A program made the translations under genes and the position numbers. The notes beneath the pieces were generated by a model, which saw nothing but the letters and a program-made list of their open reading frames with translations, was not told where the DNA came from and searched no databases. Positions 3,616-9,149 of a DNA stretch of 64,000 nt are shown one piece after another. Position 1 is the first letter of the stretch; the number at the start of each line of letters is the position of its first letter. The DNA is taken from contig NZ_CP065044.1 of NCBI RefSeq assembly GCF_015689195.1, forward strand, positions 1,612,001 to 1,676,000, read 5' to 3'. Origin of the DNA: Pectobacterium aroidearum. Lineage in GTDB: Bacteria; Pseudomonadota; Gammaproteobacteria; Enterobacterales; Enterobacteriaceae.

Positions 3616-3757
3616 TATACCCGTCATACTTCAAGTTGCATGTGCGTTAGCTACGTTCAAACACTCGGCCCGTCGTGGGCCTCGCCCTGCGGGCCAACGC
3701 TTTGCGTTGTTCAAAACGCTAACGTTTTGTCCTGAAACTCGAATTATTTAGGGTATA
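3616..3757. repeat. Dispersed repeat, full copy 1 (TATACCC ends)
   Basis: About 142 bases bounded by TATACCC and GGGTATA. One end reads TACCCGTCATACTTCAAG, the other CGAATTATTTAGGGTATA. The same two ends, in inverse order, bound a second full copy at 19885-20011, and one end recurs at 11301-11337. No coding capacity; the interior holds hairpin-forming GC-rich sequence (GGCCCGTCGTGGGCC). It looks like a small palindromic or MITE-type intergenic element of soft-rot enterobacteria. Confidence 0.75.
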
Positions 3758-4003
3758 CACATTCAATGATGGGATCACTCTACGCGATTAATAGTGAGAA
3801 TAAATATCATTTTTTTAACGTAATAATTCAGTTTATCTGACCAAACGTTAGCAGAATAAATAATCTCTTTAGCCAAGGATTTCTGGCTGTGTTCGCGTAA
3901 ATAGCGCGCCTGTTATTTAGAAAATAATGCTCCCGGCTTATCTACCTCAAAATTGGTATCTAAATATTATTATGAGCGAGATCAGTATTTTCTTTTTCGC
4001 TGT

Positions 4004-4027
4004 CGCTGTATCATTTGATATATAGCG
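4004..4027. promoter_or_regulatory. ModE-like operator
   Basis: CGCTGTATC, six bases, TATATAGCG. Compared with the known ModE pattern CGNTATATA-N6-TATATANCG the right half matches at every position and the left half at seven of nine. It lies 17-41 bases before the start codon of the binding-protein gene, where bound repressor would block the promoter. The rest of the 3758-4003 intergenic stretch is AT-rich and shows no gene. Confidence 0.65.
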
Positions 4028-4044
4028 AAAATCAGGATACCAAC

Positions 4045-5109
4045 ATGATAAAGAAATTTGGCTACACGCTGTGGTTTGTCGGGCTGTTTTTGGTGTTTTC
4101 CAACGCTGGGGCGGCGCGTCAGGTGACCGATCAACTCGGACGCAATGTGACGATTCCCGACCATGTTAATCGCGTGGTGGTGTTGCAGCATCAAACCTTA
4201 AACCTGCTGGTGCAATTGGATGCGCAAGAGAGCGTGGTCGGTGTGCTTTCTAGTTGGAAGAAACAGCTAGGTGAACATTATTTGCGGCTGGCTCCGCGTC
4301 TGGCGGATTTGCCGATGCCGGGCGATCTCACTCAGGTTAATATTGAAAGCCTGCTGAAGCTGTCGCCTCAGGTAGTTTTTGTCGCTAACTATGCGCCACC
4401 GGAAATGATTGCGCAGATTGAACGGACGGGCATTCCGGTCGTGGCGATCTCGCTGCGTCAGGATCAGCCGGGAGAAGCTGACAAAATCAATCCCACGATG
4501 AGCGATGAAAACACAGCGTATAACGAAGGGCTCAAAGCAGGGATTCGGCTGATTGGTGACGTAGTTGAGCGCCAGAAACAGGCGGAGGCGCTGATCGACT
4601 ATACGTTTACGCAGCGGCAAAACGTGGGTGCGCGTTTGGCGTCCATTCCAGAAGAGAAGCGTATCCGTGTGTATATGGCTAACCCCGATTTGACAACCTA
4701 CGGTTCAGGGAAATATACCGGCTTGATGATGTCGCATGCAGGGGCGGTGAATGTCGCGGCGGCATCGATCAAAGGCTTCAAACAGGTGTCGATCGAAAAC
4801 GTACTGGCCTGGAACCCGCAGGTGATTTTTGTGCAGGATCGCTACCCGGATGTTGTGAAGCAGATCGTTAACGATCCGGCCTGGCAGGCGATTGATGCGG
4901 TGAAACAGCATCGTGTGTATCTGATGCCGGAATACGCCAAAGCCTGGGGCTACCCGATGCCGGAAGCGTTGGCGATTGGCGAACTGTGGATGGCGAAAAA
5001 GCTGTACCCTGAGCGTTTTGCCGATGTCGATATGCAAAAAGCCGCCGATGAGTATTATCAACGCTTCTATCGTATGGGCTACCGTGCGGAAGCCGTCGCG
5101 GCGCAATGA
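4045..5109 (+). CDS. Periplasmic metal/oxyanion-binding protein of a FecCD-type ABC importer (MolA-like)
   Basis: 354 residues with a signal peptide (MIKKFGYTLWFVGLFLVF, cleavage after about residue 25) and the two-lobe helical-backbone fold of class III binding proteins: VTDQLGRNVTIPDHVNRVVV at the start, LLKLSPQVVFVANYAP near residue 115, and VLAWNPQVIFVQDRYPD near residue 260. ATG 4045 is used because it opens the signal peptide and AGGA precedes it. Such proteins carry iron chelates, cobalamin, haem or, in the Haemophilus MolBCA system, molybdate. The ModE-like operator before the gene and the ModA-like gene at the operon end favour molybdate or tungstate here. Confidence 0.8.
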   Translation: MIKKFGYTLWFVGLFLVFSNAGAARQVTDQLGRNVTIPDHVNRVVVLQHQTLNLLVQLDAQESVVGVLSSWKKQLGEHYLRLAPRLADLPMPGDLTQVNIESLLKLSPQVVFVANYAPPEMIAQIERTGIPVVAISLRQDQPGEADKINPTMSDENTAYNEGLKAGIRLIGDVVERQKQAEALIDYTFTQRQNVGARLASIPEEKRIRVYMANPDLTTYGSGKYTGLMMSHAGAVNVAAASIKGFKQVSIENVLAWNPQVIFVQDRYPDVVKQIVNDPAWQAIDAVKQHRVYLMPEYAKAWGYPMPEALAIGELWMAKKLYPERFADVDMQKAADEYYQRFYRMGYRAEAVAAQ

Positions 5110-6143
5110 GTTATCGCACCTATCGGATCACGCTGCTGACGGTGGTCGTGTTCACGCTGTTGATTGCCGTGTGCTCGCTGGGGATAGGGCGTTTTAGCTT
5201 ATCCCCGTGGCGCATCGTCCAGATCCTTATCGAACCGCTGTCTGGCAACGATCTGCTGTTCGGAAAAAAACTGCAGCTTGGGGATATCGAACAGCAAGTG
5301 GTGTGGAGCGTACGTCTACCTCGCGTGTTATTAGCCTGGTGTGCGGGCGCGGCGCTAGCGCTGAGCGGGGCCACGCTGCAAGGTGTTTTCCGTAATCCGC
5401 TGGTCGATCCGCATATTATCGGCGTGTCTGCTGGCGCGGCCTTCGGCGGCACGTTAGCGATTCTATTAAGCTGGACGCCGCTGTTTTTGCTGCTGTCTGC
5501 ATTTACGTTCGGCATGCTGGCGCTCTTGCTGATTTTCATGATGGCCGCCGCATTCGGTAAGCAGAACGTGCTGATCCTGATTCTGGCTGGTGTCATCCTC
5601 AGCGGCTTTTTCGGCGCGCTGGTCAGCCTGATGCAATATCTGGCGGATACCGAAGAGAAGCTGCCAAGTATCGTTTTCTGGCTGCTGGGCAGTTTTGCCA
5701 CGGCACACTGGAATTCGCTGGTCGCAACGGCGGTGCCGCTAGGTCTTGCGGGCGGGCTACTGCTGCGACTGCGTTGGCACATTAACGTGTTGTCGATGGG
5801 TGAGCAGGATGCGCGTGCGTTGGGTATCGCTGTGCAGCCCTTGCGTTGGCTGATTTTGAGTCTATGTGCCGCGATAGTCGCTGCGCAGGTGGCGGTCAGC
5901 GGTAGTATTGGCTGGATTGGGCTGGTTATTCCTCATGTGGCGCGTATGTTGGTGGGGGCCGATCACCGTCGTCTGCTGCCGGTGTCGCTGTGGCTGGGCG
6001 GAGGTTTTATGGTGCTGGTGGACGATCTGGCACGCACGCTCAGTGAAGCCGAGATTCCGCTGGGTATTCTGACAGCGTTGCTTGGCGCGCCACTTTTTGC
6101 CGTGCTGTTATATAAAACGCAGCGGCAGGAGAGGGGACGCTAG
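5106..6143 (+). CDS. FecCD-family ABC importer permease (MolB-like)
   Basis: 345 residues with about ten membrane segments, the length and layout of BtuC/FecCD permeases that work as homodimers. Signatures include VRLPRVLLAWCAGAALALSG near residue 70, GVFRNPLVDPHIIGVSAGAA near residue 95 and GSIGWIGLVIPHVARMLVG near residue 265. The start codon overlaps the stop of the binding-protein gene (ATGA), so the two are translationally coupled. It moves the substrate released by the upstream binding protein across the inner membrane, powered by the ATPase encoded next. Confidence 0.88.
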   Translation: MSYRTYRITLLTVVVFTLLIAVCSLGIGRFSLSPWRIVQILIEPLSGNDLLFGKKLQLGDIEQQVVWSVRLPRVLLAWCAGAALALSGATLQGVFRNPLVDPHIIGVSAGAAFGGTLAILLSWTPLFLLLSAFTFGMLALLLIFMMAAAFGKQNVLILILAGVILSGFFGALVSLMQYLADTEEKLPSIVFWLLGSFATAHWNSLVATAVPLGLAGGLLLRLRWHINVLSMGEQDARALGIAVQPLRWLILSLCAAIVAAQVAVSGSIGWIGLVIPHVARMLVGADHRRLLPVSLWLGGGFMVLVDDLARTLSEAEIPLGILTALLGAPLFAVLLYKTQRQERGR

Positions 6144-6144
6144 C

Positions 6145-6915
6145 ATGCCGACGATCAGGTTATCGACAGAAAGTCTGGTGTATGGTTACCGGCAGGGGCA
6201 AGGTTTTTTTGCACCGCTGAATTTGTGTTGTCGGGAAGGGGAAATCACGGCGATTCTGGGCGCGAACGGCAGAGGAAAAACGACGCTGTTGAATACGCTG
6301 ATGGGACATTTATCACCGCTTTCCGGGACGATCCAGCGGGATGGACACATTGGCTTTGTGCCGCAGATATTTACACCACCGTTTTCCTACAGTGTTCTGG
6401 ATATGGTGCTGATGGGGCGTGCGGCGCATGTGCGGCTGTTTGCCATGCCTTCCGCGCATGACATCACCGTTGCTCGGAATGCGCTGGCCATGCTGGGGAT
6501 CGCGTCCCTTGCTGAATGTGAGTTTAGCGCGTTGTCCGGCGGACAGCGGCAGCTCGTGCTTATCGCGCGTGCATTAGCTTCGGAGTGTCAAATGCTTATT
6601 CTGGACGAACCGACGGCGGCGCTTGATGTGCAAAATCAGGCGCAGGTGTTGCGGTTATTGAAGTATATGGCTAAAACGCAGCACCTGAGCATCCTGCTGA
6701 CTACACACGATCCCTCGCACGCGCTGGCCATTGCGGAGCAGGCGCTGCTGCTGATGGATCATCAGCATTACCTTTATGGCCGCTGTGATGAGGTTGTGAC
6801 GGAGGAAACGCTATCGCGCCTGTACGGCATTCCGATGCGGCAGGTCTGCGTGGAGATGTCGCCGCAGCCTTATCGTGCGCTGATTCCGATATTGACGATG
6901 ACGGAGCCATTATGA
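6145..6915 (+). CDS. ABC importer ATP-binding protein (MolC-like)
   Basis: 256 residues. Walker A GANGRGKT near residue 41, ABC signature LSGGQRQL near residue 132, Walker B MLILDEPTAALD near residue 152 and the switch His in LLTTHDPSHAL near residue 190. The ATG at 6145 follows the permease stop by one base and is preceded by GGAGAGGGGAC. It energises the FecCD-type permease. Its stop overlaps the start of the next gene (ATGA), so all four genes from 4045 form one tightly coupled operon. Confidence 0.88.
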   Translation: MPTIRLSTESLVYGYRQGQGFFAPLNLCCREGEITAILGANGRGKTTLLNTLMGHLSPLSGTIQRDGHIGFVPQIFTPPFSYSVLDMVLMGRAAHVRLFAMPSAHDITVARNALAMLGIASLAECEFSALSGGQRQLVLIARALASECQMLILDEPTAALDVQNQAQVLRLLKYMAKTQHLSILLTTHDPSHALAIAEQALLLMDHQHYLYGRCDEVVTEETLSRLYGIPMRQVCVEMSPQPYRALIPILTMTEPL

Positions 6916-7646
6916 CCGATCCCCTTCGCTTATATGCGGCTGGCAGCCTGCGCCTTGCCTTGACGCCTTTGTTGGCGACGTTCGGCGAACGCTATGCGGT
7001 GGATGTCGCGCCGACTTTTGGCCCGGCGGGACTGCTGAGTGAAAAAATAATACATGGCGACGCGGTAGATATTTTCGCATCGGCAAACTGCGCGCATCCT
7101 TTACGCTTGAAAGCGCTGGGGCTGGCGGAGGAAACCACCGTGTTTACGCGCAACCATCTTTGTATTGTGATGCGTAACGTGCCGGAACTCACCGCGCAAT
7201 CCTGGCTGATGGCGCTCCTTGACCCACGTTTTGTGCTGTCAACTTCCACGCCCGGTAGCGATCCCGGCGGGGATTATGCGTTCCAGCTCTTTGATCGCAT
7301 CGAACGTTTGCATCGGGGCTGGGGGAATCAACTGCGCGACAAGGCGAAACCACTGGTGGGCGGGGGGCTCGAACAGGCGATTCCGGCGGGCATGACGGCC
7401 GCAAGTTATCTGATTCGGAGCGGGCAGAGCGATATGCACATTAGCTATGCCAGCTATCTGCCGTTACTGCTTAATCAACCTGATCTACATGTGGTTCATT
7501 TGCCCGATCCGTATCGTATCGATGCCGAATACATGTTGGCTATCATGAAACCGGCCCGGCGTGAGGCGCGGCTGCTGGCGAACTACCTTTTATCGCCTGA
7601 AGGGCAGAGTTTTCTGGTGAACAAAGGATTCGCCTCACTGTTTTAG
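6912..7646 (+). CDS. ModA-like molybdate/tungstate-binding protein without signal peptide
   Basis: 244 residues homologous to extracellular solute-binding proteins of the ModA/WtpA type: LYAAGSLRLAL near residue 7 (usual oxyanion-binding Ser), ADIFASAN-like VDIFASANCAHP near residue 52, STSTPGSDPGGDYAFQL near residue 114 and ANYLLSPEGQSFLVNKGF at the end. The binding domain begins about six residues after the ATG, so there is no export signal, and the start is fixed by ATGA overlap with the ATPase gene. It may act in the cytoplasm, for example as an oxyanion store, donor or sensor. The substrate is inferred from family and operator. Confidence 0.75.
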   Translation: MTDPLRLYAAGSLRLALTPLLATFGERYAVDVAPTFGPAGLLSEKIIHGDAVDIFASANCAHPLRLKALGLAEETTVFTRNHLCIVMRNVPELTAQSWLMALLDPRFVLSTSTPGSDPGGDYAFQLFDRIERLHRGWGNQLRDKAKPLVGGGLEQAIPAGMTAASYLIRSGQSDMHISYASYLPLLLNQPDLHVVHLPDPYRIDAEYMLAIMKPARREARLLANYLLSPEGQSFLVNKGFASLF

Positions 7647-7766
7647 CCGTGGAGCGAGAGGTAAATCGGTCAACGATGACGAACTCTGCTATGATTGCGG
7701 CATATTTGCGTCGCTCTTTGGCTCGGCGTCACCTTTCGTTATCTCGTCCTTGGTAGAGTAATCACT

Positions 7767-9149
7767 GTGAGTACAACCTCTTTTTCTTCCCTCTCGCTGC
7801 CAGCAGAGCAGTTATCCAATCTTAATGAACTGGGTTATACCGACATGACGCCCGTTCAGGCGGCGACGTTGCCAGCCGTTCTGAGTGGTGCAGATGTGCG
7901 TGCCAAGGCGAAAACCGGTAGCGGTAAAACAGCGGCGTTCGGCATTGGGTTACTGGATCGTATTGTCGTGAGCGACTTTACTACGCAGGCGCTGGTGCTG
8001 TGCCCGACGCGTGAACTGGCCGATCAGGTCAGCAAAGAGCTGCGTCGTCTGGCCCGTTTTGCGCAAAACATTAAGATCCTGACGCTATGCGGCGGTCAGC
8101 CGATGGGGCAGCAGCTCGATTCTCTGGTTCACGCTCCGCATATTGTTGTCGGGACGCCAGGGCGTATCCAGGATCATTTACGTAAGCAGTCACTGTCTCT
8201 GGATAGCCTGAAAGTACTGGTGCTGGATGAAGCAGATCGCATGCTGGACATGGGTTTCACCGATGCGATTGATGATGTGATTTCCTATACGCCGTCCGAT
8301 CGTCAAACCTTGCTATTTTCTGCCACGTATCCGGAAGAGATCGAACAGATCAGCGCGCGCGTTCAGCGTCAACCACAGCGTTTCGAGATTGCAGACGACG
8401 TGAAAGAGTCGGCCATCGAACAACGCTTCTACGAGACGACGAAAGAGCAGCGATTGCCACTGTTGATTTCCATTCTGGGTCATCATCAGCCTTCGTCCTG
8501 TGTCGTGTTCTGTAACACCAAGCGCGACTGCCAAAGCGTGTTTGACGCGCTGGATATGCGTGGGATTAGCGTATTGGCGCTGCATGGCGATCTGGAACAG
8601 CGCGATCGCGATCAGGTTCTGGTGCGTTTTGCTAACCGCAGTTGCCGCGTGCTGGTAGCAACCGATGTGGCGGCTCGTGGGCTCGATATCAAAGAGCTTG
8701 AGCTGGTCGTGAATTTTGAGCTGGCTTTCGATCCTGAAGTGCACGTTCATCGTATTGGCAGAACGGGCCGTGCGGGTATGCAGGGTCTGGCTGTCAGCCT
8801 GTGTACGCCACAGGAAATGAACCGCGCTAATCTGATTGAAGACTATCTCGGTATGCGAATTAAGTGGGCTGCGGCGGATAGCCTTGACCGCACTGGCGAG
8901 GTTACGCTGGAACCTGAGATGATGACGCTGTGTATTGATGGGGGCAGAAAAGCGAAAATCCGCCCTGGCGATATCCTCGGCGCATTAACCGGCGATGCAG
9001 GATTAACCGCAGCAGAAGTGGGGAAGATTGATATGTTTCCGCTGCATGCTTATGTCGCTATCCGTAAAGCTAGCGCTAAACGCGCATTGCAGCAGCTCCA
9101 GAAAGGTAAAATCAAAGGAAAAAGCTGTAAGGCCAGATTGTTAAAGTAA
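7767..9149 (+). CDS. dbpA: ATP-dependent RNA helicase DbpA
   Basis: 460 residues, DEAD-box helicase that acts on hairpin 92 of 23S rRNA during 50S assembly. Motifs in order: Q motif region GYTDMTPVQ (residue 23), AKTGSGKT (48), PTRELA, TPGR, DEAD in VLDEADRML, SAT, then helicase C with ATDVAARGLDI and HRIGRTGRAG. The C-terminal RNA-binding domain ends GKIKGKSCKARLLK as in E. coli. The GTG at 7767 is chosen since the protein then starts VSTTSFSSL in line with E. coli DbpA; an in-frame ATG at 7695 would add 24 unlike residues. It stands alone. Confidence 0.95.
   Translation: MSTTSFSSLSLPAEQLSNLNELGYTDMTPVQAATLPAVLSGADVRAKAKTGSGKTAAFGIGLLDRIVVSDFTTQALVLCPTRELADQVSKELRRLARFAQNIKILTLCGGQPMGQQLDSLVHAPHIVVGTPGRIQDHLRKQSLSLDSLKVLVLDEADRMLDMGFTDAIDDVISYTPSDRQTLLFSATYPEEIEQISARVQRQPQRFEIADDVKESAIEQRFYETTKEQRLPLLISILGHHQPSSCVVFCNTKRDCQSVFDALDMRGISVLALHGDLEQRDRDQVLVRFANRSCRVLVATDVAARGLDIKELELVVNFELAFDPEVHVHRIGRTGRAGMQGLAVSLCTPQEMNRANLIEDYLGMRIKWAAADSLDRTGEVTLEPEMMTLCIDGGRKAKIRPGDILGALTGDAGLTAAEVGKIDMFPLHAYVAIRKASAKRALQQLQKGKIKGKSCKARLLK

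Follow-up and report, generated by a model that had tools for sequence, protein, structure and literature searches.

A predicted ModE operator precedes a probable MolBC-A-type molybdate or tungstate importer operon in Pectobacterium aroidearum

Results

The window analyzed here is a stretch of 64,000 nucleotides from Pectobacterium aroidearum (contig NZ_CP065044.1, positions 1,612,001 to 1,676,000), and our subject is an operon within it (window positions 4045 to 7646, forward [+] strand for every gene) together with a palindrome, to which no strand was assigned, directly upstream (4004 to 4027). The operon begins with molA (4045 to 5109), which is predicted to encode a periplasmic molybdate/tungstate-binding protein (PF01497). 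Using phmmer, we identified MolA as the orthologue of Haemophilus HI_1472 (PDB 3psa and 3psh), with an E value of 3.4e-145 against 3psa and 65.6% identity to HI_1472 over 323 residues. The second gene, molB (5106 to 6143), encodes a FecCD-type permease (PF01032) whose nearest solved chain is HI1471 (2nq2_A; E = 3e-108), and the third, molC (6145 to 6915), encodes an ABC ATPase (PF00005) and adjoins molB in relatives. The start of the last gene (6912 to 7646) overlaps the molC stop; its product is a ModA-like protein without an evident signal peptide (NF002916 and PF13531), and we coined the name modL for it. All of these genes overlap or almost touch, and the permease and ATPase genes stand beside molA in a single gene run, as in MolBC-A-type importers. 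The original prediction had placed a FecCD-class operon directly 3' of the palindrome and a ModA-like gene at its end, and both are as described.

The palindrome, CGCTGTATC-N6-TATATAGCG, has the exact sequence CGCTGTATC-ATTTGA-TATATAGCG and ends 17 bases before the molA ATG at 4045, with a probable ribosome-binding site for molA (AGGA, 4034 to 4037, + strand), located by eye, in between. Its 9-6-9 layout was confirmed, and 7 of the 9 arm pairs are complementary. The layout is that of the ModE box, whose consensus we take to be CGNTATATA-N6-TATATANCG. Measured against this consensus, the site has 2 mismatches in 16 positions; the earlier count of 16 fits among 18 arm positions is borne out with the two N positions counted as fits. 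When up to 3 mismatches were allowed in the 18 arm positions, the site was the sole match in the window, where 0.03 was expected. We also scored the window with a position weight matrix, as the original prediction had proposed. Built from 80 of 83 sites in the same family, all in other genera (the three sites of the own genus were left out), the matrix gave the palindrome 25.9 bits and the next-best site in the window 5.5 bits. The palindrome is real and lies far above chance. Because a scan for sigma-70 promoters from 3700 to 7800 returned 2 promoter-like matches against 3.2 expected, none of them over the operator, we claim no promoter.

To characterize the conservation of the box, we searched 295 genomes of the same family for MolA (E ≤ 1e-60), which yielded 87 genomes, and counted a box when a site near the molA start had no more than 3 mismatches in 16 positions. 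A box preceded molA in 83 of the 87 loci, the exceptions being L065, L130, L134, and L137. Among the first 81 loci, 77 carried it, compared to 0.31% of 1,620 dinucleotide shuffles; the remaining six all carried it with at most 2 mismatches. Elsewhere in the same loci there were 7 boxes in 489,844 bases, and 3 of these 7 lay directly 5' of a flipped modL. The box was also found outside the family. In the Pasteurellaceae, 7 of 9 named loci (including Haemophilus parainfluenzae, L141, but not H. influenzae Rd) had a box with 3 or fewer mismatches 5' of molA, compared to 1 of 900 shuffles, with L139 and L147 as the exceptions. The molA-proximal site ranked best within its locus in seven cases, second in one, and far down in one. 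A class-wide MolA search (369 genomes, E ≤ 1e-60) had no match beyond the own genome, which says little because few genomes of the same order were in that set.

Two kinds of side observation were made in these loci. In L139 (position 1338) and L141 (position 1320), a second, weaker box with 3 mismatches lies about 3.1 kb 5' of molA and perhaps precedes genes resembling HI1475 to HI1473. A complete mol cluster was found on a 110-kb Klebsiella pneumoniae record labeled as a plasmid (L164); modL is flipped there, and molA and modL each have a two-mismatch box directly 5'.

The conservation of the box bears on what the operon imports. Since a ModE-type box is conserved 5' of the operon in most relatives, molybdate or tungstate is the predicted cargo. 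The alternative is an importer of iron chelates or cobalamin before which the ModE-like box is incidental. PF01497, PF01032, and the top NCBIfam lists for molA and molB, which are full of Fe-siderophore and vitamin B12 models, would fit such an importer. However, none of the listed iron or B12 models reached its curated cutoff for either gene, the nearest solved relatives are Haemophilus HI_1472 and HI1471, and the box is kept in 83 of 87 loci. We consider an iron or cobalamin importer very unlikely. HI_1472 (MolA) is described as binding molybdate and tungstate (PMC4031551).

The genome encodes its own ModE, with helix-turn-helix (HTH) and Mop domains (PRK10676, 469 bits against a cutoff of 369). 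The original prediction hinged on such a gene and on the palindrome being kept in relatives, and both were found. The modE gene adjoins modA with a box between the two, and another box, with zero mismatches to a degenerate search pattern, precedes moaA. We had widened this pattern with the site at 4004 to 4027 in mind, and so the zero-mismatch match of that site holds by construction; the independent evidence comes from the shuffle-controlled conservation count and the matrix scores. Two-mismatch boxes preceded fdnG, a WtpA-like binding protein gene, and a DUF1543 gene, and a weak box lay about 210 bases 5' of a gene whose product, a large molybdopterin oxidoreductase, is similar to assimilatory nitrate reductase. 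Two-mismatch matches alone mean little, because the pattern had 22 matches in the genome at up to 2 mismatches and 16 in the control. A site 5' of a LysE gene (4066341) was taken as chance.

It is conceivable that the palindrome is bound by a regulator other than ModE, given its AT-rich core (TATATA) and the 56 matches in the genome to the LysR-type HTH model PF00126, ModE being one of them. Against this stand the similar boxes 5' of modA, moaA, and fdnG and the near-perfect boxes at 18 loci in relatives, some of which precede moaA, molA, or a WtpA-like gene. A different regulator therefore seems very unlikely to us, and the palindrome is best read as a ModE-type operator.

Boxes of this kind also stood before genes of other types. 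In the own genome, the WtpA-like gene (L056, 2159 to 3082) and a ModB/WtpB-like permease gene (1392 to 2108) have their two-mismatch box 11 bases 5' and may constitute a third oxyanion importer. The DUF1543 gene (L055, 5066 to 5569) belongs to a set of 18 DUF1543 loci (L055 and L206 to L223), 12 of which have a box with up to 3 mismatches upstream; the open-access literature searched contained no mention of DUF1543. Perfect boxes lie about 12 to 31 bases 5' of DUF2623/YghW genes in L287 (616 to 639), L249, L250, L251, L252, L255, L258, and L266, with the family assigned by Pfam for L250 and L266 and by likeness for the others. In E. coli 300709, a perfect box lies 13 bases 5' of yghW. Finally, a box stands 149 bases 5' of a gene for an HscC-like Hsp70 chaperone (L051, 2966; own-genome position 4863965); it fits the widened pattern without a mismatch and departs from the strict consensus, as counted by eye, at one position. 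We know of no link between HscC-like Hsp70 proteins and molybdenum. Within the window itself, the intergenic stretch from 3620 to 3745, between a luciferase-like gene and molA, resembles by eye a dispersed enterobacterial repeat.

We then considered the ModA-like protein that closes the operon. ModL scored 510 bits against NF002916 (molybdate ABC transporter substrate-binding protein; cutoff, 359) and 44.9 bits against TIGR01256 (modA), below the curated cutoff of 62.5. Its AlphaFold model, made from a four-sequence alignment, had a predicted local distance difference test (pLDDT) score of 90.7 and the ModA fold, and it resembled ModA and YvgL-like proteins, with sulfate-binding proteins nearly as close. 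By eye, with no predictor run, no signal peptide was evident in 78 loci, and so ModL is probably cytosolic rather than a periplasmic binding protein. With this, the original prediction is upheld as to the presence of a ModA-like gene, with the location of its product as the one detail to correct.

Could ModL be a mis-started or degenerate paralogue of periplasmic ModA that adds nothing to the system? In favor of this, its NCBIfam name is that of a molybdate ABC transporter's binding protein, loss of an N-terminal signal is conceivable, and a few loci (e.g., L069) might have a start codon farther upstream in the open modL frame. In the window, however, the modL frame has no earlier ATG, GTG, or TTG, and the frame opens no more than 15 residues ahead of the AAGSL motif in 32 of 78 loci and no more than 25 in 44 of 78. 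Moreover, a search of the same 295 genomes (E ≤ 1e-20) found ModL in 86, and an alignment of 86 sequences revealed the conserved motifs AAGSL, GPAGLL, TSTP..DPxGDY, LVGG, and GYAxY. MolA and ModL co-occurred in 85 genomes, while MolA was alone in 2 (G019 and G119), ModL was alone in 1, and 207 had neither; these counts are uncorrected for shared ancestry. Thus, ModL accompanied MolA in 85 of 87 genomes, whereas among the 208 genomes with no MolA match it occurred in one (G094), where a molA fragment adjoins modL. We judge a degenerate or mis-started paralogue to be quite improbable. The gene was kept even where it was flipped (29 loci). The idea that flipped modL always carries its own box was not upheld (3 of 29).

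The permease proved less constant than ModL. In the family, molB adjoined molA in 46 of 87 loci. There was no molB in 40 of the 87, which come from 21 genera, and modL was present in 39 of these 40. Wider stretches around the 40 loci, mostly 18 kb with a few shorter ones at contig ends, also lacked molB, and a genome-wide search (E ≤ 1e-60) found no MolB relative in 34 of the 40 genomes and distant ones, of 41 to 50% identity, in the other six. In a quick tree, 39 MolA sequences from molB-less loci (one containing a stop was omitted) formed one side of a branch with a Shimodaira-Hasegawa-like approximate likelihood ratio test (SH-aLRT) support of 94. In each of the two groups, with and without MolBC, at least 97% of the MolA sequences retain Glu101 and Glu251, as does HI_1472. 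These residues resemble by position what we take to be the docking glutamates of BtuF-type proteins.

E. coli offered a view of a possible replacement. The molA-modL pair was found in 45 of 5,426 E. coli genomes, and in the two that were read, the pair is divergent from genes for a FecCD permease and an ATPase with a perfect box in between. The permease stretch was likewise found in 45 of 5,426 genomes, and 8 of 8 listed carriers were also among the listed carriers of the pair. A relative of this permease, 64 to 74% identical, was present in all 40 MolBC-less genomes, which rejects the idea that these genomes lack a candidate permease. We read 30 of the 40 permease loci and searched them for binding-protein genes of two kinds. 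Three genomes (G207, G281, and G260) had a one-mismatch box 65 to 84 bases 5' of the permease gene and neither kind of binding-protein gene. Sixteen of the 30 had a binding-protein gene directly upstream and no box, an arrangement that makes a permease dedicated to MolA less likely in those genomes. The other 11 had neither, save for weak boxes 205 bases 5' of the permease gene in L280 and L284; in L281, a binding-protein gene lies downstream. An exchange of permease is well suggested by these arrangements in E. coli and in the three box-bearing genomes. Beyond them, the other FecCD permease may be linked to MolA.

Discussion

Read as a MolBC-A operon under ModE control, the genes at 4045 to 7646 form a system of a known kind, now with a predicted operator. 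The closest comparison is MolBC-A of H. influenzae (HI1470 to HI1472, together with HI1469), which shares orthologous MolA and MolB, an ATPase, and a ModA-like neighbor; HI1469 is named modA in PMC3928620. It differs in regulation: a ModE box is seen here, whereas the Haemophilus regulator is called an unknown factor (PMC4031551). In the E. coli ModE regulon (modABC, moa, and others), by comparison, the same features recur: the 9-6-9 palindrome, which we presume to have the consensus given above, ModE itself, carrying HTH and Mop domains, and boxes that in the P. aroidearum genome likewise precede modA and moaA. The operon departs from that regulon in that ModE would act on a FecCD-type importer, and in own or related genomes additional boxes stand before DUF1543, DUF2623/YghW, WtpA-like, and FecCD-permease genes. 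ModL differs from periplasmic ModA in having no evident signal peptide, in scoring below the TIGR01256 cutoff, and in its pocket motifs (GPAGLL and DPxGDY).

We think it highly likely that the operon encodes a MolBC-A (type II) importer of molybdate and/or tungstate that is repressed by ModE at 4004 to 4027. The importer class had been proposed in the original prediction, and it is supported by the conservation of the box, the orthology to HI_1472 and HI1471, and the presence of modE. Molybdate-loaded ModE on the operator would repress the operon. When cytosolic molybdate drops, ModE would leave the operator and molA, molB, molC, and modL would be cotranscribed. MolA would then bind the periplasmic oxyanion for import by MolBC. 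ModL, with its ModA fold and apparently cytosolic location, might bind the oxyanion once it is inside, serving as its receiver or buffer. This last role is the weakest step, and we assign it tentatively, at somewhat below even chance.

The form in which the cargo enters could differ from free molybdate. A low-affinity type II importer might take a larger complex, such as a molybdate chelate (molybdophore), or might take tungstate. The FecCD class usually carries chelates, and such a cargo would be typical of it. In the same direction, the dissociation constant (Kd) of the Mol system for molybdate is stated to be about 100 μM (PMC3928620). In vivo molybdate uptake by H. influenzae is nevertheless reported to be higher with MolBC-A than without it (Rice et al. 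2014; PMC4031551). On balance, a chelate or tungstate in place of free molybdate appears unlikely, and we retain molybdate and/or tungstate oxyanion as the predicted cargo.

The distribution of the genes also suggests a broader reading, which we put forward with more reserve than the role of ModL itself. MolA's constant partner may be cytosolic ModL, as receiver or buffer, while the permease is exchangeable. One MolA clade, spanning 21 genera, would have lost MolBC and would work with another FecCD permease; in some genomes, this permease would have lost its binding protein and come under ModE. Two features mark the operon as a variant deserving work: its ModA-like partner, which has no evident signal peptide, and the MolA clade lacking MolBC. 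In particular, with ModL in 85 of 87 MolA genomes and MolB beside molA in fewer loci, one may ask whether a binding-protein fold can work at the cytosolic face of an importer.

The analysis assigns a likely cargo to a class of operon usually labeled as iron uptake. It also bears on regulation in Haemophilus. In H. influenzae Rd, added molybdate lowered molB RNA 10-fold and modB RNA 7-fold, and the authors inferred that transcription of molABC is tied to cytoplasmic molybdate through an unknown factor (PMC4031551). No report of molABC under ModE was found in the open-access literature searched, which was available as passages only. Because the ModE box is conserved, ModE becomes the first candidate for the factor that represses Haemophilus molABC. 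Acting at a defined operator, ModE would be a direct and testable candidate for the factor left open by Rice et al. (2014).
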